A stretch of DNA of 64,000 bases from Campylobacter concisus (lineage in GTDB: Bacteria; Campylobacterota; Campylobacteria; Campylobacterales; Campylobacteraceae). This document shows positions 36,237 through 63,993 of the stretch, in pieces. The stretch spans positions 22,641 to 86,640 of the forward strand of contig NZ_PPCG01000020.1 of the NCBI RefSeq assembly GCF_002913745.1, read 5' to 3'. The position numbers were made by a program, and so were the translations under genes. Each line of letters begins with the position of its first letter. Position 1 is the first letter of the stretch. The notes beneath the pieces were generated by a model, which was given only the letters and a program-made list of their open reading frames with translations, was not told the DNA's origin and did no database searches.

Positions 36237-36314
36237 AATTTAACTTTATCATAACCATAAATTTATGCCTTTTTTTATAAAATCTGCAAATTAAAATTGC
36301 AAAAAGGAAAGCAG

Positions 36315-37979: not shown

Positions 37980-38471
37980 GGATTTGGCTCTTTTGTAAAT
38001 TTCTAAATAAAAGTGGTCAAATTTGGTTTTTAATAAATTTATCTGCTGCCATCCTGACTAAATGAAATTTCAAATTTATATTGCAAATTTAAAAGAGCTA
38101 GGACTTGTTAAATTTGAACTTTTAATGAGGCAGATAAATTTAAAACTCTGGTAAATTTGACCCTTGTTTGCAAAATCAAATTTAGCTCAAATTTTAACCG
38201 CCATGTTAAATTTGGAGTTTCAAATTTATCTGCTATGACTATTTTTATGCATAAGTTTTAAATTTCTAAATTTTCATGAGTTTGGGCTTATTAAATTTAA
38301 AATTTATTCTTGTGCGTAAAGCCAAATTTAGCCCAAAATTTAACTATATAGATTTTATATTTTTAAAAAATTTATCTGTTGTGGTTAAAAAAAACTAAGC
38401 GATAATGTTTATTGGATTTAGCTCTAAATTTAATAATCGCAGGATCTTATATTTTAAATTTGATTAAAGAA
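37980..38471 (+). other. Gene-free AT-rich stretch dominated by AAATTT
   Basis: About 490 bases between dnaX and the glnA terminator without a credible gene on either strand. AAATTT recurs many times, often in phrases such as CAAATTTAGC and AAATTTGACC. It resembles the 14.2-15.1 kb stretch in style. No RNA structure or mobile-element end was recognised. Confidence 0.5.
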
Positions 38472-38472
38472 G

Positions 38473-38499
38473 TCTCCAAGCTCAAAATGAGCTTGGAGA
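38473..38499 (-). terminator. Terminator of glnA
   Basis: On the minus strand a perfect 12-bp stem (CTCCAAGCTCA side and its partner) with a 3-base loop follows the glnA stop by about 8 bases; the run after it is ACTTCTTTAATC, moderately T-rich. Confidence 0.8.
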
Positions 38500-38506
38500 T
38501 CGCGTT

Positions 38507-39937
38507 TTAGCAAGAGAAGCAGGTTTTAAACTCATAAGCGGTTGGGCGTGCTTCGTAAGGCCAAACCTGAGTTTCAAATTTCATGTGTTGATAAGTGTCG
38601 ATGAAAAGATCACTCATTATCGGTTTTAGGTATTCGTTATCGCGGATAAGCGCTTCAAGGCTGCCACGAAGTGTGTGTGGGAGCTGCTCGATGCCACGCT
38701 CTCTGATCTCATCTAGGTGAAGTTTAAATAAATTTTCATCCATCGGACCAACTGGCTCGTATTTGTTTTTAACGCCGTCAAGCCCTGCCATTAACATCGC
38801 TGAGAAGGCTAGATAAGGGTTTGCTGTGCTATCTGGAAATCTCATCTCAGCTCTAACTGACTTCTCGCCAGCTCCGTAAGGTATGCGGATGCTCGCTGAG
38901 CGGTTTTGGCTCGAGTAGGTTAGGATAGATGGCGCTTCAAAGCCTGGTATTAGGCGTTTGTAGCTGTTTGTGCTTGGGTTTGTGAAGGCTGCAACGCTTC
39001 TTGCGTGTTTTAAAACACCGCCGATGTAGTGCCTTGCAAAGTCACTTAAATTTGCGTAGTTGCCCTCTTTGTAGAATAAATTTTTACCATCTTTCCAGAC
39101 TGATTGATGCACGTGCATGCCGCTGCCGTTGTCGCCGTAGAGTGGTTTTGGCATAAATGTAACTGTCTTGCCGTTTAGGTGAGCGACCATGCGAACGACG
39201 TATTTGTAAATTTGAACGTTGTCAGCAGCCTCAACTAAGTTGCCAAATTTCACGCCGATCTCGCCTTGACCTTGTGCGACTTCGTGGTGTCCTAAAAATA
39301 CTTCAAGACCAACTTGCTCTAAAACCTGCATCATCTCGGCTCTTAGATCGACCATACTGTCGATCGGCTGGGTCATCAAGTAGCCGCCTTTTCTGCGTGG
39401 GCGGTGACCTGTGTTGTAGCTATCTTTGAAGTCCGCAGCGTCGTTCCACTCGCCTTCTTCGCTATCTACTTGATACATCGCGCAGTTTGGGCTGTCGATG
39501 ATTTTTACGTTGTCAAATACAAAAAATTCATTCTCAGGGCCAAAATATGCCTCATCGCCAAGTCCGCTATCTTTTACATATTGCATCGCTCTTTTTGCGA
39601 TCGAGCGAGGGCATTTTTCATAAATTTGACCTTTGTAAATGTCGTAGATATCGCAAAAAACGACGACTGTGATATCAGAGGTAAATGGGTCCAAAAACGC
39701 AGATGTCGCTTCTGGCTTCATTATCATATCGCTCTTGTCGATAGGCTGCCAGCCATTCATCGAGCTAGCGTCCATTGGGATGCCGTTTGTGAAATTCTCT
39801 TTTGTAACAGCTTTTATGTTGTAGCTTATGCTGTGCCAAGCGCCGTTTAGATCGGTAAATCTAAAATCTACAAATTTAACTTCATTTTCTTTGCAAAAAT
39901 CAAAAAAATGATCGATGTTTTGGACAAATTTTCCCAT
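38507..39937 (-). CDS. glnA: Type I glutamine synthetase GlnA
   Basis: GlnA (476 residues) makes glutamine from glutamate, ammonia and ATP as a dodecamer. Family blocks are visible: [26 protein letters not shown] (metal-binding Glu), [28 protein letters not shown], and the ATP site [20 protein letters not shown] split across its core. The position corresponding to the adenylylated Tyr loop (near residue 400) reads [14 protein letters not shown] without an obvious NLYDLP, suggesting no GlnE-type adenylylation. A TACAAT -10 box and AGAAGGAG precede the ATG. Confidence 0.95.
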
Positions 39938-39968
39938 TTTTTATCTCCTTCTGGTTTTTAATTTTCGT

Positions 39969-39974
39969 ATTGTA
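39969..39974 (-). promoter_or_regulatory. Promoter -10 box of glnA
   Basis: TACAAT on the minus strand, with about 25 nt of leader to the ATG at 39937 and an AAGGAG ribosome site. Confidence 0.5.
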
Positions 39975-40024
39975 TCACAAAATTTTATATTTAAGATTAT
40001 TTTTATATTTTATTTGACCCCAAA

Positions 40025-40804
40025 CTAAAATTTTACTAATTCTCTATCTCTGTTTTTAAATATCGCACACTTTGAATACCCCAAATTTCTAGCTATCTGC
40101 TCGCAAATTTCGCCGTTTTTGCTGATATCTTCTTTGGCATGAGCATCTGAGCCAAAGGTGATAGTGATGTCATTTTCAGCGATTAACTCTAGTAAATTTA
40201 CGCTTGGATATTGCTCGCCGATAGGTTTTCTAAAGCCAGCTGCGTTTATCTCAACTACCAAATTTGCCTCTTTTATCGCTTTTATGGCGTTTTGGGCTAA
40301 GATCCTGACATCTTTTTTGGGTAAAAATTTAAATAGCTTTAAAAGATCGATGTGCCCCATGATGTCAAATTTACCAAGCCTAGCCGATCTTTCTATGTGG
40401 TCAAAATACTCCTGCCAAATTTGATCCAGGTCTTTGCCTTCGTAGCCACCGATAAATTCAGGGTTGTCAAACGCCCAGCCGTTAAAAAAATGCACAGAGC
40501 CTATTAGATAATCAACCTTTCTAGCAAAAACTCGCTCGTCCATAAAGCCATCTAAAAAGTCCATCTCATAGCCAAGTAAAATTTCTATCTCACCACTAAA
40601 TTCATCTCTTAAACGTAAAATTTCGTCTTCGTAGCTTTGCATCTCTTCAAATTTCATCCTATAAGCTTCATCGTAGTTCATCGGCGCGTGATCGCTAAAG
40701 CCAAAGTATTTTGTGCCAGCTTTTATGGCGCATCTCACAAATTCTAGCGGTTCGCCAACTGCGTGGTTGCAAAGCGGTGTGTGGTTGTGAAGATCGACGG
40801 TCAT
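40025..40804 (-). CDS. PHP-domain histidinol-phosphatase-like protein
   Basis: A 259-residue metal-dependent phosphoesterase. PHP motifs are visible in order: motif I VDLHNHTPLCNHA at 3-15, FSDHAP, EILLGYEMDF, IGSVHFFNGW, MGHIDLL, and FGSDAHAKEDI. This set matches the HisJ-type histidinol phosphatase family, which would act in histidine synthesis. Substrate cannot be fixed from sequence, since related PHP proteins act on other phosphates. Single gene upstream of glnA on the same strand, separated by 87 bases holding the glnA promoter. Confidence 0.85.
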   Translation of the reverse strand: MTVDLHNHTPLCNHAVGEPLEFVRCAIKAGTKYFGFSDHAPMNYDEAYRMKFEEMQSYEDEILRLRDEFSGEIEILLGYEMDFLDGFMDERVFARKVDYLIGSVHFFNGWAFDNPEFIGGYEGKDLDQIWQEYFDHIERSARLGKFDIMGHIDLLKLFKFLPKKDVRILAQNAIKAIKEANLVVEINAAGFRKPIGEQYPSVNLLELIAENDITITFGSDAHAKEDISKNGEICEQIARNLGYSKCAIFKNRDRELVKF

Positions 40805-40908
40805 TTTTTGCCTTTTAAAGTCGTTTATTTTTCAAAAATGCTACCTAAAATTTGATAAATTTAAAGATAAACGCATACTTTTTAAACTTTCTTTTTATTT
40901 AAATCTTA

Positions 40909-40914
40909 TATAAT
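40909..40914 (+). promoter_or_regulatory. Promoter -10 box for the cheZ-led operon
   Basis: TATAAT within CTTATATAATCAAGG; the expected start near 40921 leaves a 20-nt leader with TTAGGAG before the ATG at 40941. Confidence 0.65.
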
Positions 40915-40940
40915 CAAGGCAAATTTTATTAGGAGCTTTT

Positions 40941-41699
40941 ATGACCCAAGAGGAACTTGACGCGCTTATGGCGGGCGGATTAGAGGATGATTTAGGTGAT
41001 ACTAAAGATGCCAGCCAAGAGGTCGCGGACGTCAAAGAGGAAACAGACGAGGTAGCAGAAGTTGCAGAGGCAATGAGTGCTAAAGCAGATGAGCCACAAG
41101 CAAAGTCAGAGAGTAGCTCAAAACAGGGCGAAAACTACAGAGTGAGTGCAGACGGCGTTTGGCCACCGCCACCACCGACTGAAGACCACAAAATGGTACA
41201 CCAGCTTGATGATGTGACAAGAGATAGCGAAGAGAAAGCTACTCAGATGTTTGACAAGCTTGAGACGATAAATAACTTTTTTATGGACGCTGAGAGCGAC
41301 TCAAACAGCCTAAAAGACGCTATAAACTCAAACGTTGAGCTATTTACGACGCTAAGTGAGAAATTTCCAAATATCGCTGCATTTAGCGAGGCTTTGGAGA
41401 AAAACAACGCACTTCTTGGCACAGTTGATAACATCATCTCAAATTTACAAATGGGACAAGATGAGATCATGATGGCTATGGATATGATGCAGTATCAAGA
41501 CATCCACAGGCAAAAGATCGAGCGTGTTATCAACGTTATGAGAGCACTAAGCAAGTATATGAATACCTTGTTTGAAGGTAAAATAGACGATGAAAAACGT
41601 GTTGGCTCTGCTGTTCATATCGCAGGCGATACAACGACTGAAAACCTAGTCAGCAACGACGACATCGAAGCCTTGATAGAAAGTCTGGGTAAAAAATAG
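40941..41699 (+). CDS. cheZ: CheZ-like chemotaxis phosphatase
   Basis: A 252-residue protein of the remote epsilonproteobacterial CheZ group (Helicobacter HP0170, Campylobacter Cj0700). Residues 187-191 read D-I-H-R-Q inside MQYQDIHRQKIERV, matching the DxxxQ catalytic motif of CheZ on a long helical hairpin (about 90-215). The N-terminus MTQEELDALMAG and an acidic, Pro-rich linker (about 15-85) are unlike enterobacterial CheZ. The C-terminal SNDDIEALIESLGKK may be the CheY-binding tail. It should dephosphorylate CheY-P. It is followed by trhP with a TAGTG overlap. Confidence 0.85.
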   Translation: MTQEELDALMAGGLEDDLGDTKDASQEVADVKEETDEVAEVAEAMSAKADEPQAKSESSSKQGENYRVSADGVWPPPPPTEDHKMVHQLDDVTRDSEEKATQMFDKLETINNFFMDAESDSNSLKDAINSNVELFTTLSEKFPNIAAFSEALEKNNALLGTVDNIISNLQMGQDEIMMAMDMMQYQDIHRQKIERVINVMRALSKYMNTLFEGKIDDEKRVGSAVHIAGDTTTENLVSNDDIEALIESLGKK

Positions 41700-42958
41700 T
41701 GCTAAAAAGGCCTGAGCTTTTATCTCCAGCTGGAAATTTAACAAAACTTAAAATCGCCCTTGAATACGGAGCCGACGCTGTTTATGGCTCGGTGGCTAGC
41801 TTTTCGCTAAGGACTAGATCAGCAAGAGAGTTTAACCTTGAAACATTCAAAGAGGCAATAGACTACACACACGAAAAGGGAAAGAAATTTTATGCGACCA
41901 TAAATGCTTTTCCTTTTAACTCTCAGATAGAGCCGCTAAAAAGGCACTTACAAACCATCTCAGCGATGAAGCCAGATGCCTTTATCATCGCAACTCCAGG
42001 CGTCATGAGCCTAGCAAAAGAGATCGCTCCAGATATCGAGATACACCTCTCCACTCAGGCAAACGTTATGAACGTGCTGGATGCTAAAATTTATCACGAC
42101 ATGGGCGCAAAACGCATTGTTGTGGCTAGAGAGATGAATTTAAAAGATGTTATAAAGATAAAAGAGGAAATTCCAACCCTTGATATCGAAATTTTCGTCC
42201 ATGGCTCGATGTGCTTTGCCTACTCTGGCAGGTGCCTAGTAAGCTCAGTGCAAAGCGGACGTATGTCAAACCGCGGCAGCTGCGCAAATGACTGCAGATT
42301 TAAGTATGAACTCTACGCCAAAAACGAAGAGAGCGGCGTGCTTTTCCGTTTAGAAGAGGACGAAAACGGCACTCACATTATGAACTCAAAGGATCTTTGC
42401 CTCATCTCACACATCAAAGAGATTGTTGATAGCGGTGTTGTTGATAGCTTTAAGATAGAGGGTCGCACAAAGAGCGAGTACTACGCAGCCTGCACGGCAA
42501 GAGCCTATAAAATGGCAATAGATGACGCTATGGATGATAAATTTGACGCGCAAATTTATGAAAATGAGATAAATACGCTGAAAAATCGTGGCTTTACGGA
42601 CGGCTACTTGGTGCATAGACCTTATGAGCGAACCGATACGCAAAACCACGTTAGCAGCCTAGAAGAGGGCACTCATCAGGTAAATGCCATAAGCGAAGAT
42701 GGTGAGTTTTTTAAGTGTAAGTATAAAATTTTCCCAGATAAGGGCTACGAGATCGTAGCACCGACTGGGGCTATTATAGATGATAGTGAAAATGAAATTT
42801 CTAAGGTCTATTCGCAAGATGGCAAGAAATTTATCAAATTTAAGCAACTCATCACCAAAAAAGGCAAGGTCATGAGCGAAATTCACAGCGGCAATGAAAA
42901 TGAGATAAACCTCGGCGTTAAGCTGCCAAAATTTAGTTTTTTAAGGGAGAAAATATGA
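41699..42958 (+). CDS. trhP: U32-family protein, tRNA hydroxylation factor TrhP-like
   Basis: A 419-residue member of the peptidase U32 family. The family signature is visible in VHGSMCFAYSGRCLVSSV with conserved cysteines, followed by NRGSCANDCRF; the N-terminal TIM-barrel part begins RPELLSPAGNLTKLKIAL. In E. coli the YegQ/TrhP group is needed for 5-hydroxyuridine at tRNA position 34, so protease activity is doubtful. GTG start overlapping the cheZ stop by one base; the end overlaps purE by 4 nt. Confidence 0.85.
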   Translation: MLKRPELLSPAGNLTKLKIALEYGADAVYGSVASFSLRTRSAREFNLETFKEAIDYTHEKGKKFYATINAFPFNSQIEPLKRHLQTISAMKPDAFIIATPGVMSLAKEIAPDIEIHLSTQANVMNVLDAKIYHDMGAKRIVVAREMNLKDVIKIKEEIPTLDIEIFVHGSMCFAYSGRCLVSSVQSGRMSNRGSCANDCRFKYELYAKNEESGVLFRLEEDENGTHIMNSKDLCLISHIKEIVDSGVVDSFKIEGRTKSEYYAACTARAYKMAIDDAMDDKFDAQIYENEINTLKNRGFTDGYLVHRPYERTDTQNHVSSLEEGTHQVNAISEDGEFFKCKYKIFPDKGYEIVAPTGAIIDDSENEISKVYSQDGKKFIKFKQLITKKGKVMSEIHSGNENEINLGVKLPKFSFLREKI

Positions 42959-53331: not shown

Positions 53332-55001
53332 ATCTCAAACTCCAACGGAGTAAATTCTAATCGTGCTAAAAGATGAAAAGAGAGAGCAAAACCAAGTTTC
53401 AAACTCCAACGGAGTAAATTCTAATTCAAGTTGCAAAATGACGAAATAGTAAATTTAGGAAAGTTTCAAACTCCAACGGAGTAAATTCTAATATGATGTT
53501 ATCGAACTTTGCCTCGCGCACGTTGAAGTGTTTCAAACTCCAACGGAGTAAATTCTAATTCAGCCAGCATAAAAACAAAAGGTAAGTTTTTATTAAGTTT
53601 CAAACTCCAACGGAGTAAATTCTAATGAATTCGTCTTGTGGCAGTTCCCTTATTTTAGCTAGTTTCAAACTCCAACGGAGTAAATTCTAATACTGGGATT
53701 AAATGCATCTTTCCCTTTGACCCTATATTGTTTCAAACTCCAACGGAGTAAATTCTAATTGCATATATTAGGAAAAACGCAGAGCATAAAAACACGTTTC
53801 AAACTCCAACGGAGTAAATTCTAATTTTGCCCTTTGCGTTCATTTGGTGCTAACCTCAAAGTTTCAAACTCCAACGGAGTAAATTCTAATACCATACAAG
53901 ATAAACAATGAACGCCCTATCGCCAGTTTCAAACTCCAACGGAGTAAATTCTAATAGCAAAAGAAAAGCCATATTTTGTCAGCGACGGCGAGTTTCAAAC
54001 TCCAACGGAGTAAATTCTAATCGTGCATGAATAGCGCAAACACCAGTTGGAATGCTGTTTTAAACTCCAACGGAGTAAATTCTAATTGAAAACCAGAAGC
54101 GCATCGGTGTGATCAAATACGGTTTCAAACTCCAACGGAGTAAATTCTAATAAAGCGTTCACCGTTAAAACTCATAGCCAAAAGAGGTTTCAAACTCCAA
54201 CGGAGTAAATTCTAATTTTAAACTTACGCCACTACCTATCATATCTTTGGCGGGTTTCAAACTCCAACGGAGTAAATTCTAATAAACGTGCCTATCTTAC
54301 GGCTTGTTACTTCAATCATGTTTCAAACTCCAACGGAGTAAATTCTAATTGAGCGTTTTGGTTATTACCGCGAGATCAGATACGGGTTTCAAACTCCAAC
54401 GGAGTAAATTCTAATATATCTTCAACCCTGACGCCTAGATACTTCGCACGTTTCAAACTCCAACGGAGTAAATTCTAATTTTGGCGCTTCTTAGATAAGC
54501 GTTGCTATTAGTGTGTTTCAAACTCCAACGGAGTAAATTCTAATAAAATAGCTCCACGTAACGCTTACCTCGCCGTTGCGTTTCAAACTCCAACGGAGTA
54601 AATTCTAATCTAGGCTTTCATTTACGTTCAAAGCCTTGGCTATGTTTCAAACTCCAACGGAGTAAATTCTAATAATTAAATTCTCGCCTCACGGCCATTC
54701 CTTTTTTATCGTTTCAAACTCCAACGGAGTAAATTCTAATTTATTGGAATAATTTAAAAAGTGGGACGTATTACTAGTTTCAAACTCCAACGGAGTAAAT
54801 TCTAATGTTAGCCCTAACTCTTTCAAGGCTTCATCACGAGGTTTCAAACTCCAACGGAGTAAATTCTAATTATCTTTTTGTTTATTGCTTTGTCAATCAC
54901 TGCACGTTTCAAACTCCAACGGAGTAAATTCTAATCCCACTCTAGGTTTGTATTGTCGCTAGGTATTTGATGTTTCAAACTCCAACGGAGTAAATTCTAA
55001 T
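53332..55001 (-). CRISPR. Type I-B CRISPR array, 26 repeats and 25 spacers
   Basis: 30-nt repeats start (plus strand) GTTTCAAACTCC and end AATTCTAAT, separated by 25 spacers of 34-38 nt, all different. On the minus strand the repeat ends TTTGAAAC, close to the ATTGAAAC handle of type I-B, and contains the hairpin CTCC-GTT-GGAG, so transcription is leftwards, like the cas genes. The leader side is then at 55002-55154 next to cas1. The repeat at 53332-53361 differs at two positions at its outer end, as expected for the leader-distal terminal repeat; the repeat at 54057-54086 carries one C-to-T change. The other 24 copies appear identical. Confidence 0.98.
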
Positions 55002-55154: not shown

Positions 55155-56153
55155 TCACTCCCACCTAAATCCTTCATAAGGCGCATCCTCGCAGATACAC
55201 TTTTTAAGCTTATTTGCTTCGCGGCGGATCACCTGCCTCCACGTTAGCTCCCTACCGCCCACCGTGAGCGTCTCGCAAAGGCGCGAGATCATCTTTAGCT
55301 CGATCTTTTGCACGGCGTCGTTGCTAAATTTTATCCTGCCGGCGTCCGTTTGGAAGTCCTTTACGGTGATCTCTTTTTTATTTAGCAAGTTAAAAATCAG
55401 CGTATCGCCCAAGATCGGCTTAAAAATCTCCGCAAGATCGAGATGTAGGCTTAGCGCGCGGTAGTTTGGCTCGTGCAAAAAGCCGATGCGAGGATCTAGC
55501 TCGGTCTTGTAAATTTCACTTAGGCAGATGTTGTAGATACGCGTATTTGCGTAGCTTATGAAGCTGTTGATCTTATCAGCGGGTGGGCGTTTTGAGCGGA
55601 CGGTAAATTTAAAGCTTCGCTGATCTGAGATGATCTCGTTCCACTTTTCGTAGTAGAGCTTTTGAAATGCACCCTCTACCGCCATTATTGCAGGCACGCT
55701 AGTGGCGGCATCTAGTGCCTTTAAGTATGGCTGTGCGTCAAATTTCACGCCGTGTCTTTTGCAGTTTGCCGCGTCGTTTATAATGTGGGCTCGAGTTATC
55801 TCGCGCGCGATATATGCACGTTTGATCGGATCGTCAAAAGAGCGGAGCTGGCACAGCAACACAAAGCCGCTTTTATTTACAGAGTTTGGCGTATTTGGGT
55901 AGAAATTCCCGCGAAAACTCTGATACGGGCTAAAGATGTGCAAAAGGATGTTATTATCCGCTAAAAATGCGATGGTGTAGGTGTCGATCTGCACCTTTGC
56001 CAGCATGTAAATTTCATCGATCGCGTTTATTGGCAAAATTTTACTAGCGATAAGCGCGCCCGTCTCGTCAAATTTTTCAAAGTAGATATTGTTATCTTGC
56101 CTGTAAAGCCTACCTGGACTAAGTATAAAGTGCGTTCTGTCGCTCTTTTGCAT
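55155..56153 (-). CDS. cas1: CRISPR-associated endonuclease Cas1 (type I-B)
   Basis: Cas1 (332 residues) is the integrase that, with Cas2, inserts new spacers at the leader. The N-terminal beta domain starts ILSPGRLYRQDNNIYFEK; the catalytic helical domain shows the metal ligands in MAVEGAFQKLYYEKWNEI (Glu), GFLHEPNYRALSLHLDLAEI (His and Asp). AAGGAG precedes the ATG. It is the last gene of the cas operon, downstream of cas2, the reverse of the common cas1-cas2 order. Confidence 0.96.
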   Translation of the reverse strand: MQKSDRTHFILSPGRLYRQDNNIYFEKFDETGALIASKILPINAIDEIYMLAKVQIDTYTIAFLADNNILLHIFSPYQSFRGNFYPNTPNSVNKSGFVLLCQLRSFDDPIKRAYIAREITRAHIINDAANCKRHGVKFDAQPYLKALDAATSVPAIMAVEGAFQKLYYEKWNEIISDQRSFKFTVRSKRPPADKINSFISYANTRIYNICLSEIYKTELDPRIGFLHEPNYRALSLHLDLAEIFKPILGDTLIFNLLNKKEITVKDFQTDAGRIKFSNDAVQKIELKMISRLCETLTVGGRELTWRQVIRREANKLKKCICEDAPYEGFRWE

Positions 56154-56162
56154 ATTTGCTCC

Positions 56163-56441
56163 TTAGCTAAATACCGGGCTATTTTTATCTACGCCAATGA
56201 CGATGCGCTCGGAGTATTTTAGTGAGTTAAATGTATAGATGACGATGGAGTCTAGCTCGCTTACGCACTCTTTTTGCAGCGTCTTGCTTAGCTTTTTAAA
56301 GTCGCTCTCGCGGATCTCGCCCTCATAGACTGAAAACTGCACGCGAGGCAGAAACTTCTCGACCGCTTTTCTGATACGATTTGCGTTATTTCGCTCTTTT
56401 TGCTCGCACCCTGCGATGTCGTAAAAAAGTATCACATACAT
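56163..56441 (-). CDS. cas2: CRISPR-associated Cas2
   Basis: A 92-residue ferredoxin-like protein beginning MYVILFYDIAGCEQKERNNA; Asp8 is the conserved first-strand Asp, and RRVQFSVYEGEI-like FLPRVQFSVYEGEI is the typical second block. It bridges two Cas1 dimers during spacer integration. I start at the ATG at 56441, with TAGGAG upstream, because the longer open frame runs back into cas4. It lies 8 bases after cas4 and 9 bases before cas1. Confidence 0.94.
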   Translation of the reverse strand: MYVILFYDIAGCEQKERNNANRIRKAVEKFLPRVQFSVYEGEIRESDFKKLSKTLQKECVSELDSIVIYTFNSLKYSERIVIGVDKNSPVFS

Positions 56442-56449
56442 CTTGTCTC

Positions 56450-56950
56450 CTAAGCAGTGCAATAGTCGTGATATGCGCAGTTTTGGCAAAATTTACCATG
56501 CGTAAATTTTGGCGGCTTCTCTAAATTTGCAAGTGCGCTTATCTCACTTAAAATTTGTTCCATTAGAGCAAAATTTTCGCTGGTGTCATCAACTAAAATC
56601 ACCTTTTTACCGCTTATTAGCTTGCCTTTTACCTCTTTTAAATTTAAGCCCGTTTTTAAAAGATAGATGTAAAAAAGTAGTTGCATCTTGCCTGCAAGCT
56701 CGTTTTTTAGGCTCTTTTTATATTCCGTGATGAGGTAGTGGCCGTGCTGCTTTGAGAGTTTGTCAAATTTAAGGTTGCCAAAGGCAAATTCTTGTAGATC
56801 TCGCTCTTTGATATCAGCCAAAGCCTTGCCCATCAGCACGTTTTCATCCTCTTGGTCCGCGTGGATCTGATGTGCGTAAAGCCACGCCTCGCGCTTACAG
56901 GTGACGTAGTAATTCACAAGTGTACCAGTGATCTGATCTTTTGAGAACAT
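56450..56950 (-). CDS. cas4: CRISPR-associated exonuclease Cas4
   Basis: Cas4 (166 residues) trims prespacers and helps choose PAMs. It has a RecB-like nuclease core with KFDKLSKQHGHYLITEYKKS (Asp, Glu-x-Lys) and the four iron-sulfur cysteines C18, C155, C158 and C164 (CQNCAYHDYC). Short Cas4 of this kind is usual in type I-B. Its start overlaps the cas3 stop by one base, and cas2 follows. Confidence 0.93.
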   Translation of the reverse strand: MFSKDQITGTLVNYYVTCKREAWLYAHQIHADQEDENVLMGKALADIKERDLQEFAFGNLKFDKLSKQHGHYLITEYKKSLKNELAGKMQLLFYIYLLKTGLNLKEVKGKLISGKKVILVDDTSENFALMEQILSEISALANLEKPPKFTHGKFCQNCAYHDYCTA

Positions 56951-59151
56951 TAGTCAAACACCTCGTCGGTTATGTCTAAATTTGTATCCTTTTTAAGGCC
57001 GCACTCGGCACTATAAAAATAAGACGAGCCAAACGGCAGATAAAACATATCATTAAGCCCATTTATCTGTTTTAAATTCGGCATTAGCTTATTTATATCT
57101 TTTAACGTTACATTTATGCTAAATTTCGACAACTTTCTGATGTGGTTTTTAAAAAGATCTCTTATGGTAAATTTCTCATTTGGACTATTTTTGATCTCAA
57201 AAATTCTAGCTTCAAAATCTTTAATGAAATTTTCTTCAGGCTCGATTATTATGGTTTGTTTGTAATTGTCGTTCATGATATCCTCGATTTTTTGATTTAT
57301 ATTTTCAAATTCCAGCTTTTCTATCTCGCTTTTTATATGCAAATTTTCCAGTTGATTGCTTATCTTTTGAAAATACAAATTTGAAATTTCTAAAATTTCG
57401 CTCTCTCGCACCTCTTTTTGCTTAAGATCGCTCAAAATAGTTCCACTTACTTTATATAGATCGCCGTAAATCAAATTTGTAAATTTGCTTATTTCAGGAA
57501 AGACGTATAGCTCGCCCCTTGTTGCTCCAAAATGCCTATTTACGCGCCCTGCTGTTTGTATGATAGAGCTAATGGGCGAGACTTCGCGAAACCCAATGTC
57601 AAAGTCAAGATCCACTCCAGCTTCTATGGACTGCGTGGAGATAAGTAAAATTTTGCTTGCGAGCGGATCAACTTTGTTTTTATCTATCGCGCACCTTACA
57701 GCCTCGATAGTAGCACGTTTGTGATCATCATACATATATCCGTTTAGGCAAAAGCAGTTAAATTTATCCCTTAGTTTAGCAAATAGCTCTTGCGCTTTTT
57801 TGATCGTATTTACGACGACTAGAGTATTTTTATCGCTTGCGGTTTCGCAAATCTTTTCTAAAAGCTCATCTTCGCCGCCTATATCAAGCCATTTTATGAC
57901 ATATCTATCCTGCTTTGAAAAATAGTCTAAATTTGAAATTTCTTTAAATTTTTCGCTTTTTATGACCGGCATCGTCGCTGACATAAATATAAAAATAGTG
58001 CCAAGTCGCTGCGAAACGATCTCGCAAAGCAGGATAAAATCTTTTCTAAAGTTATATGGGATCGCTTGCGCCTCATCGATGATAACGACGCTATTTTTTA
58101 GCTGATTAAATTTAACGTTGTCTTTGTTTTTGTTACCAAATAGCGCAAATATCAGCTGATAAAGCGTAGTCACGTTTATCTCGCCGCTAAAAGATTCCAT
58201 TAGAAATTTGATCTTTGAGTATCTGTCTTCGTCGGTTAAATTTTCTTCATCTACCATTGTTTTGTGGTGAGCCTTGCTGACCAAAATATCGCTATTTTTA
58301 TAAATTTTCGCGAATATATCATAGGTTTGATCGATTATTGAGGTAAATGGAAGCGCATAAATTATGCGTGATTTTTTAAATTTCAATGCAAAGTTTAATG
58401 CCGTCAAGGTCTTGCCGTAGCCAGTCGGTGCAGTCAAAATAAAAAGTTTGCGCTCTTTGTCAAAGTTGTTTAAGACGAAATTTCTAAACGCATCTCTCTT
58501 TTCATTTGGCGGCAAATTTTTGATATCACTCTCTAAAACATCTATCGGTATATCTTTGCTTTGCTGCTTTGGCATGCTAAAGATCGCCTCAAATTTATCG
58601 CTATAAATCAAATTTGAATATAGGCTCTTAAAATTTATAAAGTCCTCATAGGTAAATTTGTGCCTGTACTGCGATAAAATTAAGTATTGACGAAGCTTTT
58701 CCGCTCTATCTAAAAACTCATCTTTTTTTGTAGATAACTCCAAATAGATCTTAATGTTTTTAGCAGCGCCAGCCACTTCATCCCACTGCTCTAGCTCTTT
58801 TTGGTTTTTGAAAAATTTATTAGCTTCTCTGGCTAGCGTCATTAAATTTACCACGTCGCCGTGGTGCGAAACGATAGCAAGAAAGCCAAACAGGGTTGGC
58901 ATCTCATCAAATTTTGAGTTTAGCAAGAAAAAATATGCCGACAAGAGCGAGTGGTTTTTATCTAGCTTGTCGTTTGAAGTATCTCTGATATAAATTTGAA
59001 AATTATTTTTCAGTTTTGCGATGTCGTGATAGAGTTTGACCTGCTTATCCAGCTCATCGTCGTCAGGCGAGATCATATTTTTTATATGATTTTCTAAAAG
59101 TTTATTTGGATGAGACCAAAACTCGTCAAATAAAATAGACTCTTTCATCAT
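56950..59151 (-). CDS. cas3: Cas3 helicase-nuclease (HD + DExD/H)
   Basis: Cas3 (733 residues) unwinds and degrades target DNA after Cascade binding. The N-terminal HD nuclease has H22, H42-D43 (YHDIAK), H67 and the SHHGD pair near 92. The helicase shows Walker A APTGYGKTLTAL, DEAQ (VVIIDEAQAIP), FMSATMP, STQSIEAGVDLDFD and QTAGRVNRHF. All catalytic residues look intact. The start overlaps the end of cas5 by 26 bases; the in-frame ATG three bases in is an equal choice. Confidence 0.95.
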   Translation of the reverse strand: MMKESILFDEFWSHPNKLLENHIKNMISPDDDELDKQVKLYHDIAKLKNNFQIYIRDTSNDKLDKNHSLLSAYFFLLNSKFDEMPTLFGFLAIVSHHGDVVNLMTLAREANKFFKNQKELEQWDEVAGAAKNIKIYLELSTKKDEFLDRAEKLRQYLILSQYRHKFTYEDFINFKSLYSNLIYSDKFEAIFSMPKQQSKDIPIDVLESDIKNLPPNEKRDAFRNFVLNNFDKERKLFILTAPTGYGKTLTALNFALKFKKSRIIYALPFTSIIDQTYDIFAKIYKNSDILVSKAHHKTMVDEENLTDEDRYSKIKFLMESFSGEINVTTLYQLIFALFGNKNKDNVKFNQLKNSVVIIDEAQAIPYNFRKDFILLCEIVSQRLGTIFIFMSATMPVIKSEKFKEISNLDYFSKQDRYVIKWLDIGGEDELLEKICETASDKNTLVVVNTIKKAQELFAKLRDKFNCFCLNGYMYDDHKRATIEAVRCAIDKNKVDPLASKILLISTQSIEAGVDLDFDIGFREVSPISSIIQTAGRVNRHFGATRGELYVFPEISKFTNLIYGDLYKVSGTILSDLKQKEVRESEILEISNLYFQKISNQLENLHIKSEIEKLEFENINQKIEDIMNDNYKQTIIIEPEENFIKDFEARIFEIKNSPNEKFTIRDLFKNHIRKLSKFSINVTLKDINKLMPNLKQINGLNDMFYLPFGSSYFYSAECGLKKDTNLDITDEVFD

Positions 59152-59836
59152 TTATCTGATAAATATTTCCATGATTTTTAGATTTTATAAGCTCTTTGCC
59201 GTTTATCTCCATAACAAAGTCTTTAAAATCTTTAAAAATTCGTCCATTTTCGCAGCCACAAGGCATTCTTGCCGTAGTTAATTTCACATTTTCATCAATG
59301 CCTTCAAAAACAAAGTCATCCATAAGCATAAATGTGTTTATAAAGCTTTCATCTTGCGATATTTTTTCGCATATTTTTATATCTATCCAGCTAAAATCCG
59401 CTATGCAAAAATTTATCCCAAGATAGGGCGTAAAGGCGGTTTTATGCTCTTTTAAATTTGAGATTATTTTATCTTGATAGCATTGCTCTAAATTTTCTAA
59501 ATTTAAAAATATGACATAAGATGGCGAGCAGATTAGTTCTCTGTAAAACTGCTTTTTCTCTTTTGCGTTTTGATAGCCTTCTTCTATGTGTATATTACTT
59601 GATAGGGCAAATTTTATGCCGTTAAAAACAAAGCTCTTTTTTAAAATTTGCCTATCTATTTTTACGCTGTATTGGATGCTTGATAGCTTAAAGTACTCTT
59701 CTTCGCCTATAACGGCGCCTAAAAAGCCCATTATAGTGGTCTTTGGTGGCACTGGATAGGTTAAGCTAGAATAAATCGTCGCCGGATGCGAAAAATGAGC
59801 GTAATCGCCAAATAATCTAAAAGCAACAATGCTCAT
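59126..59836 (-). CDS. cas5: Cascade subunit Cas5 (type I-B)
   Basis: Cas5 (236 residues) caps the 5' handle of crRNA in Cascade. The RAMP fold shows in MSIVAFRLFGDYAHFSHPAT, the conserved YPVPPKTTIMGFLGAVIG block (beta-strand, then Pro-Pro-Lys-Thr loop and helix) and a later TPYLGINFCIAD. It starts one base after the cas7 stop (TAAAATG) and overlaps cas3. Confidence 0.92.
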   Translation of the reverse strand: MSIVAFRLFGDYAHFSHPATIYSSLTYPVPPKTTIMGFLGAVIGEEEYFKLSSIQYSVKIDRQILKKSFVFNGIKFALSSNIHIEEGYQNAKEKKQFYRELICSPSYVIFLNLENLEQCYQDKIISNLKEHKTAFTPYLGINFCIADFSWIDIKICEKISQDESFINTFMLMDDFVFEGIDENVKLTTARMPCGCENGRIFKDFKDFVMEINGKELIKSKNHGNIYQINDERVYFI

Positions 59837-59837
59837 T

Positions 59838-60779
59838 TTATGCCTCTATCTTTTTCCAACTGCTGTCAAAATTCCCTTTATTTATCGCTTCAAAATCATA
59901 ATCGCTCATATACTCTATCTTTTCTATATTTGCAGCGTATCTTGCGAGTTTATTTTTTAAATTTGTAAAGTCGATAGTGTATTCGTTGATGCTTCTTATC
60001 ACTCTATCTTCTTTTTCGCTTTTTAGGCTTATGCTATTGTTTAGATCGCCTGCAAACGTATCGTCTTTGTATGTGATGATTAGCATAAATCTTGGAGTTT
60101 GACCGATTTTGGAGCGAGTTGTCAGGTTTTTAGTACCGTGCCACAAAGCTTTTAAAATTTTAGCCTCATCGGCTTCGTTAAAGCCTGTTTTTGCTGCATT
60201 ATAGTTATCTATGATGCCGTAAGTAGCAAAAATAGCGTATTTTATAAATTCCTCTTCTCTAAAAGTCGCTTGATCTTTTTGTTTTTTTGGATCATTTTGA
60301 TCGTAGTCGCTAGCAAAAGCGCCAGTTCCTTTAACATGCTCTACTTCGACCTTGTTTAGGGATTTGCTTAGTCTAAACTGCACTGGTCCAGTAAATTGGA
60401 CGCCTGCGGTTTTTATCTCTTTGTCTTGTTTCATCTCGTCTTTATCTGAAATAGGCAAAACTCCGCCAAATGCGCGGATATCGATAAATTTAGACAAAAT
60501 TTCTCTTTGCAGTTCGCTTTTGTTTTGCTTTATGTTTATACTTTGTCTGATAGCCGTTTTAGCGTCTAGCAGGGCATCCTCTATCCTATACTCCTTTATA
60601 AAAATCGACGCCTCATCTTTTTTCATGATCTCATCTCTAATAGTCCTTTTTATACGCACGTCCGTCACCTCGGCTATGCCGGTCTCATCATCTCGCCTAG
60701 GAGCGTTATCCTTTAGCATGTCGCCATTTGGGTTCCAGTTCTCTCCGTCCCATAAAAAAAGTATCTCTTTTTTTTGCAT
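59838..60779 (-). CDS. cas7: Cascade backbone subunit Cas7 (Csh2 type)
   Basis: Cas7 (313 residues) forms the helical backbone on the crRNA. The Csh2 signature is clear: LWDGENWNPNGDMLKDNAPR followed by RDDETGIAEVTDVRIKRTIR in part, a glycine-poor thumb, and FGGVLPISD. Strong AGGAG upstream. It sits between cas8b (10 bases) and cas5 (one base). Confidence 0.95.
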   Translation of the reverse strand: MQKKEILFLWDGENWNPNGDMLKDNAPRRDDETGIAEVTDVRIKRTIRDEIMKKDEASIFIKEYRIEDALLDAKTAIRQSINIKQNKSELQREILSKFIDIRAFGGVLPISDKDEMKQDKEIKTAGVQFTGPVQFRLSKSLNKVEVEHVKGTGAFASDYDQNDPKKQKDQATFREEEFIKYAIFATYGIIDNYNAAKTGFNEADEAKILKALWHGTKNLTTRSKIGQTPRFMLIITYKDDTFAGDLNNSISLKSEKEDRVIRSINEYTIDFTNLKNKLARYAANIEKIEYMSDYDFEAINKGNFDSSWKKIEA

Positions 60780-60789
60780 TTTATTCTCC

Positions 60790-62556
60790 TTATTTTGTTT
60801 TTTCTTTTATAAATTTACGATAGTCGCTTCCACCCATAGCAAAGGCAAGCGTAGTATGTGAGGTTTTTACTATCTTTCTCTCCTTAGAAAAGACCTGCGG
60901 TAAAATTTCGATCAAACACTCTTTTATATTTTCAATGTTAGCATTTGGCTTGCCAGAAGCAGCCTTAAGCTTTCTAATCATCTCATCGCACTTTGTCCAA
61001 ATTCGCTCCAAATTTTCCATACTTATTGATTCGCAGTCATTGAGCCAGTTGCTAAAAGATACGCCGCCGTTCACGCCAAGCTGCCAGTTTATCATGGCCG
61101 CGCTTAGCATACCGAGCAAATAAGCGCTAATGAGCGCATCGTTTTGATGTAAAAACTCGCTATTTTTGATTAGCTCTTTGATCAGTTCTTTTTTATCGGT
61201 TAAATTTTCCAAATCGCACTCCTTTTGAAAGACTAGTTTTTTGTTTAAGACATTGGTCTCATTAAAGAAATTTTGATATTTTGCAATATTTTCAAACTTT
61301 CTTTCTTTATAAAAATCGTTAAAGTATTTGCTCCATTCCAACTTTTTTGCGTAACTTTTATTGACGCTACCATAATAAATCAGATCGCTATATCTTTCTA
61401 TCATAATCTCTAAATCAAATTTATTTCTTGATAGCAAAAAGCTCATCACACCAAGCCTGCTTTCAAATAAATTTTGCAGATAGATCGTCTCATCTGTGCC
61501 GCTATTTTTTTCATAGAAGGCTTTTATGTTAAAACGGCTCATTAAATTTGAGATGCGAGAGATAAAAGATGGTAAAACATCGTCTATCGCAAGCTTCAAA
61601 TCGATAGCAGCGTTGCTTTGCGTGTAAAATAAAATCGTATTTAAAACAGGTAAATTTTCCTGCTTTTTAGCTGTTGTCTCGAGATAATAATCTATGCTAA
61701 ATTTTATGGCTTCCTCGGCGATTTCAATATTTTTTATGTCGCTCTTTGAAGTCTCTTCAAGTATTTTTACAATCTCTTCTAAATTTACTGAGCTACTCAA
61801 AATAGTCGGTAAAATCGCCATTTTCATACCATAAAAATTATGCGATAGCTTATCTTTTATCGCTTTAAAGCCATTTTCTACCTTTTTTGCACTATTGGCG
61901 CTCAGTGGCAGGAGCTTTGATTTGATAAATTGCATATTAGCAGGCATCTCATATACCGAGCAAAATGCTAAATTTGCATCGCCGCCGATACCCTTTTCAT
62001 TTGTCAAAATATCGTACCCGTAAGATGATTTTTGCTCTTTTACGCTGATATGATTTTCAAAAATTTGCTTAAAATATGCAGAAACCGGCTTGCCATTATA
62101 TGAGAGCGAGAAAAAAGTAGCGACTTTTTTACCTTTTTCGTTTTTTAGCTCATCTAGACCTTTGATCTCATCTATAATACCAACAAAATACTCTTCATTT
62201 ATGCTTGATAGTATGGATAAAATAGCGTCTTTTTCTATAATGCTTGGCTCAAAAAGGGAGAGCAAATTTGAAATAGATTTCAAAATGCCTCTTATAAATT
62301 TAGCTTCGTCTTTATTTATTTCTTTGGATAAAAATTGAGAATTTGGGAAAAGATTGCCAGAATTTGCTCCAACGCCAAATCTACATATTATTAAGTCATA
62401 TTTACTTATATTGAAATTTGGCTCGATCTGCTTGGTCGCTATGTCGCAGAGATAGACTTTGATCTTGTCGTATTTGTGAGCGCCATTTTTGAGCTTAAGC
62501 TCTTCTTTTTCATATACTTCACCTATGTCAGCAAGAATTTTAACTATATCAGCCAA
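60790..62556 (-). CDS. cas8b: Cascade large subunit Cas8b (TM1802/Csh1 type)
   Basis: Cas8b (588 residues) is the large subunit that recognises the PAM. It starts MADIVKILADIGEVYEKEEL and ends with FAMGGSDYRKFIKEK, the TM1802-family C-terminal block. No CXXC zinc site is obvious, fitting some Cas8b variants. The start is a TTG at 62556 with AAGGA about nine bases upstream. The 464-bp gap to cas6 lacks a convincing promoter close to it, so transcription may come from the divergent-site promoter at 62874-62902, through the small ORF. Confidence 0.92.
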   Translation of the reverse strand: MADIVKILADIGEVYEKEELKLKNGAHKYDKIKVYLCDIATKQIEPNFNISKYDLIICRFGVGANSGNLFPNSQFLSKEINKDEAKFIRGILKSISNLLSLFEPSIIEKDAILSILSSINEEYFVGIIDEIKGLDELKNEKGKKVATFFSLSYNGKPVSAYFKQIFENHISVKEQKSSYGYDILTNEKGIGGDANLAFCSVYEMPANMQFIKSKLLPLSANSAKKVENGFKAIKDKLSHNFYGMKMAILPTILSSSVNLEEIVKILEETSKSDIKNIEIAEEAIKFSIDYYLETTAKKQENLPVLNTILFYTQSNAAIDLKLAIDDVLPSFISRISNLMSRFNIKAFYEKNSGTDETIYLQNLFESRLGVMSFLLSRNKFDLEIMIERYSDLIYYGSVNKSYAKKLEWSKYFNDFYKERKFENIAKYQNFFNETNVLNKKLVFQKECDLENLTDKKELIKELIKNSEFLHQNDALISAYLLGMLSAAMINWQLGVNGGVSFSNWLNDCESISMENLERIWTKCDEMIRKLKAASGKPNANIENIKECLIEILPQVFSKERKIVKTSHTTLAFAMGGSDYRKFIKEKTK

Positions 62557-62700
62557 AATATTTTCCTTATTTTATTTAACTTAAAATTTTAAATATTTTT
62601 TAATTTTATGCATGCTCGACTTAAATATCTCTAAATTTAAGCTTATTTTGCAAGTTTAAAAAATAAAAATATAAATCAAGTATTTTTTATTATGCTTGTA

Positions 62701-62838
62701 TTAGCTACAGTAAATACTGAACTCTATCCATTCTAAATTTATGTCAAAAATTTTAATGTCTACGATAAGACTAAAAAATATAAACAAAAAGCACAATATA
62801 TATTTTCTTGTGCGATTAAAAAGCTTTTTAATTTTCAA
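62701..62838 (-). CDS. 45-residue basic/hydrophobic peptide, CreT-like toxin candidate
   Basis: A short ORF between cas6 and cas8b. The TTG start at 62838 is six bases from a very strong ribosome site GGGAGGG (62851-62845), itself behind a TTGAAA/17/TATAAT promoter. The peptide has a basic N-terminus (MKIKKLFNRTRK), a hydrophobic stretch (YILCFLFIFFSLIV) and a tail ending IYCS, the build of small membrane toxins. A CRISPR-repeat-like RNA encoded divergently carries a guide matching the bases just upstream of its -35 box. No family was recognised; toxicity is inferred from context. The strong signals argue against a chance ORF. Confidence 0.6.
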   Translation of the reverse strand: MKIKKLFNRTRKYILCFLFIFFSLIVDIKIFDINLEWIEFSIYCS

Positions 62839-62873
62839 ATATAACCCTCCCAAATCTTTTTTATTTGCATATC

Positions 62874-62902
62874 ATTATAATACAGAATAAAATATATTTC
62901 AA
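62874..62902 (-). promoter_or_regulatory. Sigma-70 promoter of the small ORF (and possibly cas8b operon)
   Basis: On the minus strand TTGAAA (62902-62897), exactly 17 bases, then TATAAT (62879-62874). The start would be near 62867, leaving a leader of about 28 nt with GGGAGGG. Confidence 0.75.
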
Positions 62903-62903
62903 G

Positions 62904-62922
62904 TTATATTGTTTTAACGGTT
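62904..62922 (+). promoter_or_regulatory. Probable target of the repeat-like guide RNA (PAM-like TTA plus 16-nt match)
   Basis: Bases 62907-62922 match the 16 nt right after the repeat-like handle (62998-63013) at 15 of 16 positions; the only mismatch is position 12, one of the every-sixth positions not paired in type I Cascade. The preceding TTA would be the PAM. It abuts the -35 box at 62902. Confidence 0.7.
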
Positions 62923-62953
62923 AAAATGATTTTTGTTTTGACAAAAAATGTAC

Positions 62954-62959
62954 TATAAT
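62954..62959 (+). promoter_or_regulatory. Promoter -10 box of the repeat-like RNA
   Basis: TATAAT on the plus strand, with TTGACA at 62938-62943 (spacing of 10 to this box, 17 to CATATT at 62961). Either start would lie just before the repeat-like element. Confidence 0.6.
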
Positions 62960-62965
62960 ACATAT

Positions 62966-63036
62966 TAAAGAATAAGGTTCCCGCTGGGATTTGAAATTAT
63001 TGTTTTAATGGTTTGTAACCTTATTCTTTTTCTTTT
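62966..63036 (+). ncRNA. CRISPR-repeat-like guide RNA (CreA/CreR-like)
   Basis: A predicted RNA of about 70 nt, antisense to the end of cas6. It contains TCCC-GCT-GGGA then TTTGAAAT (62990-62997), compared with CTCC-GTT-GGAG then TTTGAAAC in the array repeat: same hairpin with compensated pairs and almost the same 8-nt handle. The next bases (62998-63013) match a site upstream of the small ORF promoter. GAATAAGGTT (62970) and AACCTTATTC (63017) enclose the element and are followed by TTTTTCTTTT, a terminator. Cas6 could cut after the hairpin and load it on Cascade. Confidence 0.7.
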
Positions 63037-63707
63037 GTTATCTCTATAAAACCTACTCCATAGTTCATACATCCACTACCAACTCCCACATCAAGGATCA
63101 AATTTATAAGCTCTGGCCTTGCTTTGATATGCCATTTTGCAGGCCAAGCTTTGACTGGCATATTGTTGTTGCCATAGTAAAAATAAAAAGGTTTTTGTAA
63201 ATTTTGCCAAAGCAAATTTAGCTCAAACTCGCCCTCATATTTATACCCAATAAGTGTTTCAAATCTTTGTAGCGCGTTTGTTTTCATCATTTCAAGATGT
63301 CTAGAGTCTTGCGGCTCAAGATGTACTTTGTATCCCAAAAGTCCAACAACCGAACACACTACGCATCCTTGAAAAGTAGCCTCATTTTGTGAAATTCTAT
63401 GCTCTTTTACTGACACAGACGTGTCAAGCAAACAAATATTGCCAAGTTTTAATCCATCTTTTAGTACAGCAAAAGCGATCGTTTTTTCAAATTCTGGCAC
63501 AAACGAGCTAAATCTTATTTCTAAACTTAAGCCATTTAATCTAAAATCAAAATTTGATCTTTTAAAATTTTTTCCACTCTCTTTATGTGTGTATCCGTCA
63601 TGTTCAGCTTTTGGCAAATAGCTATAAATATAGCCTTGTATGAGCTTAGATAAAGACTTTGCTATTTTTAAATTTTGAGTAGGTAGGCGTGAATTTATAA
63701 TGATCAT
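63021..63707 (-). CDS. cas6: CRISPR RNA endoribonuclease Cas6
   Basis: Cas6 (228 residues) cuts pre-crRNA inside the repeat, leaving the 8-nt handle. The two ferredoxin folds end in the glycine-rich loop DVGVGSGCMNYGVGFIEI at about 205-223, the Cas6 hallmark; a possible general-acid His is in KAEHDGYTH near the start. It has AAGGAG before the ATG and a TATAAT -10 box at 63741-63736. It lies upstream of cas8b but is separated from it by the 464-bp regulatory gap; its stop codon lies within the terminator stem of the opposing RNA. Confidence 0.9.
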   Translation of the reverse strand: MIIINSRLPTQNLKIAKSLSKLIQGYIYSYLPKAEHDGYTHKESGKNFKRSNFDFRLNGLSLEIRFSSFVPEFEKTIAFAVLKDGLKLGNICLLDTSVSVKEHRISQNEATFQGCVVCSVVGLLGYKVHLEPQDSRHLEMMKTNALQRFETLIGYKYEGEFELNLLWQNLQKPFYFYYGNNNMPVKAWPAKWHIKARPELINLILDVGVGSGCMNYGVGFIEITKEKE

Positions 63708-63917: not shown

Positions 63918-63993
63918 GTCTTGCTAGCTCAGTCGGTAGAGCATCTCACTTTTAATGAGGGGGCCGTTGGTTCGAATCCAACGCAGGACACCA
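63918..63993 (+). tRNA. tRNA-Lys (anticodon TTT)
   Basis: A 76-nt cloverleaf: acceptor GTCTTGC/GCAGGAC, D arm GCTC...GAGC, anticodon arm TCTCA-CTTTTAA-TGAGG with TTT at positions 34-36, T arm with GTTCGAATCC, discriminator A and encoded CCA. It follows the cas locus on the opposite strand. tRNA genes often border genomic islands, so it may mark the edge of the CRISPR region. Confidence 0.95.

Follow-up and report, generated by a model that had tools for sequence, protein, structure and literature searches.

The Campylobacter concisus locus described here is akin to the CRISPR-guarded CreTA modules of Haloarcula hispanica and Halobacterium hubeiense and of the Acinetobacter type I-F locus, in which a degenerate repeat followed by a guide pairs, through seed positions 1-5 and 7-11, with a PAM-flanked site at a neighbouring promoter (PMC8501985). 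The H. hispanica module is alike in two further respects, its position between cas6 and cas8 and its single degenerate repeat (psi-R) with a T-rich end (PMC8501985). As described in that source, positions 1-5 and 7-11 of H. hubeiense CreA are needed while 6 and 12 tolerate mutation, and creA genes keep the stem, the loop length and the handle while the start of the repeat degenerates. In CrePA, CreP is a protein toxin with a KilA-N domain (“typically”, in the wording of the review) that is repressed by CreA together with the Cas effector (PMC12737573). A cas-regulating RNA, CreR, has been reported for types I-B, I-E and V-A (PMC13131331). No case of CreTA, CrePA or CreR in Campylobacter was found by searching open-access papers, and the word Campylobacter is absent from four papers on these systems; a listing in Science 2021, Cell Host Microbe 2023 or Nat Chem Biol 2025 is possible.

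We analysed the window, a 64,000-nucleotide stretch of C. concisus DNA. We consider it likely, judging from the sequence, that a guide RNA encoded beside cas6 leads the type I-B Cascade to a TTA-flanked site at a divergent -35 box, where it would block a suspected toxin gene and, probably, the effector operon.

Results

The type I-B locus and its guide-RNA gene

The type I-B locus of the window reads leftward as cas6, a 464-bp gap, cas8b (Cas_TM1802), cas7, cas5, cas3, cas4, cas2, cas1 and a CRISPR array. All of the cas genes are on the minus strand: cas6 at 63021..63707 (PF01881, 2.7e-9; PADLOC Cas6b), cas8b at 60790..62556 (PF09484, 3.1e-17; PADLOC Cas8b), the first effector-operon gene after the cargo, and cas7 through cas1 at 55155..60779. 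The array (53332..55001, minus strand in the crRNA sense) has 26 repeats and 25 spacers, and its repeat, ATTAGAATTTACTCCGTTGGAGTTTGAAAC on the minus strand, contains the hairpin CTCC-GTT-GGAG followed by TTTGAAAC. One spacer at an array end (53362-53395) matches the strain's own chromosome at 33 of 34 positions without a TTA PAM (G000:C13:43724-43757) and is also matched in several relatives. A search of Rfam returned no family at the cas6-cas8b gap and, elsewhere, a tRNA and a sub-threshold riboswitch match; a tRNA gene at 63918-63990 adjoins the cas6 end of the locus and is a possible integration or exchange point. No close relatives of Cas6 were found in viral contigs.

The plus strand of the gap carries, beside the cas6 stop codon, a degenerate CRISPR repeat (psi-R, 62968..62997) and a guide (psi-S, 62998..63013 for its first 16 nt, TATTGTTTTAATGGTT). 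The repeat-like hairpin and handle of the original prediction are both present (62979-62997), the hairpin as TCCC-GCT-GGGA (62979-62989) and the handle as TTTGAAAT (62990-62997). Compared with the array repeat, psi-R is identical at 7 of 8 handle positions and at only 9 of the first 22 nt, while the stem stands at the same position, both loops are 3 nt long and two stem pairs are compensated. A repeat-derived hairpin with an 8-nt handle like that of the resident repeat, as expected of a CreA or CreR RNA, is therefore found.

The predicted guide-RNA gene of the CreA/CreR kind (62967..63029, plus strand) is bounded by a 13-bp closing stem (arms 62967-62979 and 63017-63029) that encloses hairpin, handle and guide and is followed by a T-rich tail; the last codons of cas6 overlap its right arm. 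The stem's score was reached in 0 of 300 shuffles, and the RNA fold of the gene has a z of -3.66. Relatives have an enclosing stem of 7-13 bp that differs in sequence, equalled by at most 3 of 300 shuffles in each of 12 among the 16 loci measured and not clearly above chance in the other four (18, 27, 91 and 87 of 300 for L016, L029, L032 and L036). Stems were counted locus by locus, with no covariance model made, because MAFFT alignment A2 of 13 guide RNAs aligned the closing stems badly. We infer that the closing stem may close and terminate the guide RNA, replacing a second repeat.

A possible guide-RNA promoter lies at 62938..62966 (plus strand; TTGACA-17-CATATT, with a TATAAT also at 62954-62959), a weak assignment by consensus. 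The plus-strand promoter that had been predicted thus has its sequence elements in place, but these are not in excess over shuffles (six matches in the region against a shuffle mean of 7.0), which makes the guide promoter less firm. A terminator scan of the region limited to loops of 3-8 nt found none, and the 23-nt handle-plus-guide stretch had no match in viral contigs.

The target site, its PAM and the divergent promoter

The guide matches a target 91 nt upstream on the same strand (62904..62922, plus strand), pairing at 15 of 16 positions with the protospacer 62907-62922, the sole mismatch being position 12, and the PAM TTA occupies 62904-62906. On the minus strand next to it is the promoter predicted to be repressed (62874..62902), with -35 TTGAAA (62897-62902) and -10 TATAAT (62874-62879) at a spacing of 17, 11 of 12 consensus positions and a -35 that begins 4 nt from the protospacer edge, a geometry common to relatives. 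This promoter drives toward the cargo ORF (62701..62838, minus strand), which has 45 codons, a TTG start and the Shine-Dalgarno sequence GGGAGGG at 62845-62851. The prediction of a 15/16 guide match upstream of a divergent promoter (62902-62874), leading to a 45-codon ORF (62838-62701) behind a strong ribosome site, was thereby confirmed.

The PAM was derived by matching the array against 48 genus genomes, and its protospacers are sites in relatives' genomes because the array spacers had no match among INPHARED phages. From a longer list 20 places were picked, two of which were dropped with best spacer matches of only 19/37 and 20/37. The 18 remaining protospacers, each for a different spacer, are preceded on the 5' side by TTA in 15 cases and TTG in two, the last being a PAM-less self match. 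The guide target has TTA at the exact position of this spacer-derived PAM, as at CreA and CreR targets, and the fit counts as independent confirmation because the PAM was unknown when the original prediction was made.

Several controls bear on chance. In dinucleotide-shuffled versions of the 270-bp upstream stretch, an exact 10-nt seed with TTA occurred at a frequency of 0.0005 for the window locus and of 0 to 0.00125 across 12 loci, each tested singly; without TTA, the seed was found in 0.025 to 3.9% of shuffles. The string formed by TTA and the first 11 guide letters has a single occurrence in the strain's own genome, at the target site, and nine in 48 genus genomes, two of the nine being guide targets. 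When all positions were weighted equally with no seed or PAM rule, the target was the top-scoring 16-nt stretch on the same strand among the 400 nt upstream in 19 of 21 loci; all 19 have TTA and mismatches before position 12 only at position 6, and L008 and L009 have another site with equal score. The guide-target relationship, as read from these sequences, is real, conserved and beyond chance.

Conservation and co-change in relatives

Genomes with such a cas operon were sought in the genus and the family, in 398 genomes sampled evenly from the order and in the family of G127. Of the 43 genomes so gathered, 24 combine a guide with a TTA-flanked target, with 19 distinct 11-nt seeds among them, so the conservation in relatives proposed as a check on the prediction was borne out; related loci are not independent. 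By group, the combination is found in nine of ten genus genomes with the window-type cas8b, in four of five with similar cas1, cas2 and cas4 and another effector, in 7/8 from the rest of the family (20/23 for Campylobacteraceae as a whole), in 4/14 from the family of G127 and in 0/6 elsewhere in the order.

No guide with a matching target was found in 19 of the 43 genomes, most of them outside Campylobacteraceae and a few cut by contig ends. The three Campylobacteraceae exceptions are G006, which has a short gap without a repeat; G046 (L011/L039), in which cas8b is present and the 4-kb flank has no cas6 match; and G571 (L138), which has repeat and guide and no TTA-flanked match. The G571 locus is decaying, with stops in cas8b and a cas6 match in three pieces. 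Stops in cas8b are also seen in G040 (L009), which has a guide and no cargo, perhaps through an assembly error. The first scans accepted only G or T at the fourth handle position, and a wider scan of 22 guide-less genomes added G559 and G560 (handle TTTAAAAT) and G045. The wider scan gave five matches for TTA against 0 to 3 for other trinucleotides, and two of the five (G045 and G571, outside the gap) are taken as chance.

In all 24 loci the guide lies 77-121 nt downstream of its target on the same strand. Positions 1-5 and 7-11 are all matched in 23, where mismatches before position 12 occur only at 6, a pattern partly built in, as most scans scored only positions 1-5 and 7-11. The sole seed mismatch is in G045 (L188 7791), whose TTA-flanked pairing has mismatches at 6 and 8. 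Positions 6 and 12 are the bases that Cascade leaves unpaired. Seed pairing at 1-5 and 7-11 to a nearby promoter, the hallmark of CreA and CreR, is thus what the loci have. In 19/21 loci the distance from the protospacer edge to the start of the best -35 box is 4-8 nt, and the best promoter scores only 8/12 in five of the 21.

Guides also occur beside other kinds of Cas8b (PDLC01387 in G031; PDLC01343 in G037 and G041), and it is therefore cas6, rather than any one cas8, that the guide accompanies. The effector modules of these three genomes appear, on this comparison, to have been swapped while cas6 and the guide stayed. At L154, L186 and L187 (G037, G031 and G041, respectively), window-like cas1, cas2, cas4 and cas6 flank the different Cas8b genes.

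Cargo genes and their linkage to cas8

No gene is seen between the guided promoter and cas8 in 15 of the 24 guide loci, an arrangement of the CreR type, and in the other nine a cargo gene comes first. The cargo is the 45-residue peptide in the window strain, G014 and G037; a 55-residue peptide with a C-terminal hydrophobic stretch in G003 and G038 (L007/L010), weakly alike; a 37-residue TM-like peptide with a PemK/MazF-like protein in G127 (PF02452 PemK_toxin, 7.2e-11); a 41-residue TM-like peptide in G556; and a PIN protein in G546 and G551 (PF01850, 9.2e-13). On inspection of the ORF listing, no separate antitoxin-like ORF was apparent alongside the PIN and PemK cargo. KilA-N, the domain of CrePA toxins, had no match in seven cargo proteins at E up to 1.

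The 45-residue cargo, with the hydrophobic stretch ILCFLFIFFSLIVDI and a net charge of +3, is predicted to be a membrane peptide and suspected, on its sequence, of being a toxin. The window and G037 ORFs, both of 45 codons, have 34, 36 and 23 identities of 46 at the three codon positions, with synonymous differences of 0.75 per site and nonsynonymous of 0.23, a pattern that speaks for a translated ORF under purifying selection; the three substitutions that separate the window and G014 ORFs are all nonsynonymous, which counts against constraint. The 55-residue pair L007/L010 has 13/56 ungapped identities including the stop (ps 0.67, pn 0.47). The window peptide had no family match, and no match in 5.8 billion proteins in a search that needs shared 5-residue words, the ORF starting with TTG. 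Homologue searches recovered one homologue of the 55-residue peptide and seven of the 41-residue peptide.

The PIN gene runs 8 nt into the start of cas8b, which the end of the 41-residue ORF abuts, while at the other cargo loci the cargo-cas8 distance is 30-144 nt; the cas8 frame is without an internal stop in 9/9 cargo loci. At the window locus, neither a terminator-like sequence nor a further minus-strand promoter-like site was found from the cargo promoter to cas8b. Because the PIN and 41-residue cargo overlap or abut cas8b, cargo and effector genes are probably one transcript, and the guide would silence both. The same overlap and abutment in relatives lend support to the suggestion that cas8b is transcribed from the cargo promoter, and so do the cargo-less relatives, where the guide addresses the promoter directly before cas8. 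The effector promoter is targeted directly in 15/24 loci, as in CreR; the window locus would share this feature only if transcripts from the cargo promoter continue into cas8b.

Genomes with 95-98% identical cas8b differ in their cargo (the window strain and G014 versus G016, G022 and G027), and guide, target and cargo therefore seem to be exchanged together, moving as a cassette.

A plasmid type IV-E array directed at the locus

A search with the gap in relatives led, in G027, to a different type of CRISPR array, that of plasmid pICON (NZ_CP021643.1) of C. concisus P2CDO4. The type IV-E system lies at about 35950-37450 and 37536-42597 (L151/L184), where PADLOC identifies a type IV-E Cas6, a fused Csf3-Csf1 and DinG, with Csf2 as type IV; it is not named type IV-E in the PLSDB annotation. 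A term search of the main text of the pICON paper gave no occurrence of CRISPR (PMC5893538).

Among the 19 spacers extracted from the pICON array, one is identical to a stretch of the cargo ORF at 33 of 33 positions (62784..62816, plus strand) and a second matches cas8b at 30/35 (62099..62133, minus strand; 31/35 in L003, L004 and L006-L009). A third pICON spacer shares 31/34 positions with one of the spacers in the I-B array of its host. Conversely, a spacer of the G027 I-B array (L043, apparently that of P2CDO4) matches pICON (L189) at 34/37 with TTA at about 106744, and another matches at 30-34/37, in some cases with TTA, in pICON repeats (about 110253-110520) just before the replication gene. 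From these matches, chromosome and plasmid appear to carry guides against each other. pICON persists despite matching host I-B spacers.

The pICON host chromosome (L005) has no cargo, and its cas8b matches the plasmid spacer at 30/35; other strains were therefore probably the source of the cargo-directed spacer or the reason that it was kept. A search of PLSDB and the family found pICON to be the only such plasmid, and type IV-E Csf3-Csf1 occurs in one of 153 family genomes, G027 itself, so that the plasmid attack on the locus rests on one plasmid. The 33-nt pICON spacer had no match in viral contigs. According to a survey of plasmid CRISPR systems, their targets are mainly plasmids and viruses (PMC9071438).

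Alternative explanations

One might suspect a stray repeat-spacer unit, now decaying and matched by chance, in DNA this AT-rich, in which the 10-nt seed alone recurs in as many as 3.9% of shuffles; with TTA the frequency falls to at most 0.125% per locus, and 24 genomes with 19 seeds have similar geometry. This explanation, which we regard as extremely improbable, was rejected on the shuffles, genome-wide uniqueness, the best-site control and the conservation in relatives. It is also very improbable, if a little less so, that the inverted repeat merely terminates or attenuates transcription at the cas6 3' end: its 13-bp stem, T-rich tail and overlap with the cas6 stop codon would suit such a role, but the tail is on the plus strand, opposite cas6, and the loop contains handle and guide in 16 of 16 loci measured. 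A plain terminator was rejected on these two grounds.

The other two alternatives concern what is guarded. The guide might only autoregulate the cas operon in the manner of CreR, the small ORF being a harmless leader peptide or an unrelated insertion. The 15 loci in which the guided promoter leads straight to cas8 agree with this, as do the three changes between the window and G014 ORFs, all nonsynonymous, whereas the protein-level constraint between the window and G037 ORFs, the PIN and PemK domains in the same slot elsewhere and the plasmid array spacer against the 45-codon ORF disagree, and we judge autoregulation without a functional cargo to be unlikely. Less probable again is a true CreTA in which the transcript's Shine-Dalgarno sequence and codons sequester parts of the translation machinery and the peptide is incidental. 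The strong GGGAGGG would serve such an RNA, and the CreT of H. hispanica is an RNA toxin (PMC12737573), but it is the third codon positions that vary most, and the cargo of other loci consists of known protein toxin domains. The original prediction of a CreTA-like module accordingly holds as to conservation and PAM, while the cargo, which looks translated and conserved, places the locus nearer to CrePA, or to CreR with cargo, than to CreTA with its RNA toxin. The best-supported description of the locus is a CrePA-like variant with a protein toxin, coupled to Cas autoregulation, in which the peptide would be toxic.

Discussion

For the guided, Cascade-dependent repression favoured here, the elements seen in the DNA are the degenerate repeat, the seed, the PAM, the promoter geometry, the co-change of guide and target and the PIN and PemK/MazF cargo. 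Cas6 would cut after the hairpin to give an RNA whose 5' end is the handle TTTGAAAT from 62990 and which begins TTTGAAATTATTG. Because the pairing is short (about 14-19 nt), Cascade would be expected to bind without cutting. Should Cascade disappear, be inhibited by an anti-CRISPR or be drawn off by other crRNAs, repression would drop, and the derepressed cargo would then harm the cell. The circuit would be a CreR feedback with a fuse, loss of Cascade giving more Cas and, where cargo exists, a toxin as well, so that an invader disabling CRISPR would release the suspected toxin.

A further proposal, which we put forward tentatively and consider less likely than not to hold in full, is that a swappable guide slot at cas6 converts an autoregulator into a booby trap and back, and that the type IV-E guides of pICON, by hitting both cas8b and the fuse, disarm the guard. 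In this proposal the guide is aimed at any promoter lying before cas8, and a peptide or a PIN or PemK toxin inserted between them serves as the fuse, which fires once Cascade falls. Were this so, it would be a natural case of CRISPR against CRISPR in which the guard toxin is disarmed and a plasmid could both switch off the host CRISPR and escape the trap. Judging by the pICON spacers, a mobile element appears to find the guard worth targeting, which offers a concrete and testable reason for fuses. The origin of addiction from autoregulation can also be tested directly, since close relatives (cas8b 95-98% identical) either have or lack cargo at one locus. If the main reading is correct, CRISPR-guarded toxins would extend to Campylobacterota and to the classical folds PIN and PemK/MazF, whose protein antitoxin would apparently have been replaced by RNA-guided Cascade.

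The guide, the seed rule, the PAM and the targeting of a promoter are already known from CreA and CreR. The CreTA cargo is an RNA toxin, whereas here a conserved peptide or classical toxin domain seems to take its place; this cargo, moreover, runs divergently from the guide and apparently opens the cas8b operon, and the guide lies inside a closing stem. CrePA is alike in its protein toxin, crRNA-like antitoxin and release upon effector inhibition (PMC12737573), with toxicity of the cargo inferred in the present case, and differs in that the cargo here lacks KilA-N, comprises 37-55-residue peptides, PIN and PemK/MazF, and is tied to effector autoregulation. Type I toxin-antitoxin systems likewise have a small hydrophobic peptide beside a small-RNA gene (PMC12737573); their RNA acts on mRNA, whereas the predicted target of this one is promoter DNA, reached through Cascade. 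CreR resembles the present system in that the guide matches the promoter of the cas effector operon, and 15 of the 24 loci do only that; the other nine differ from CreR in having cargo between the guided promoter and cas8. What appears to be new, judged by comparison of these loci, is the joining of autoregulation and a protein-toxin fuse on one guided promoter, with interchangeable cargo.
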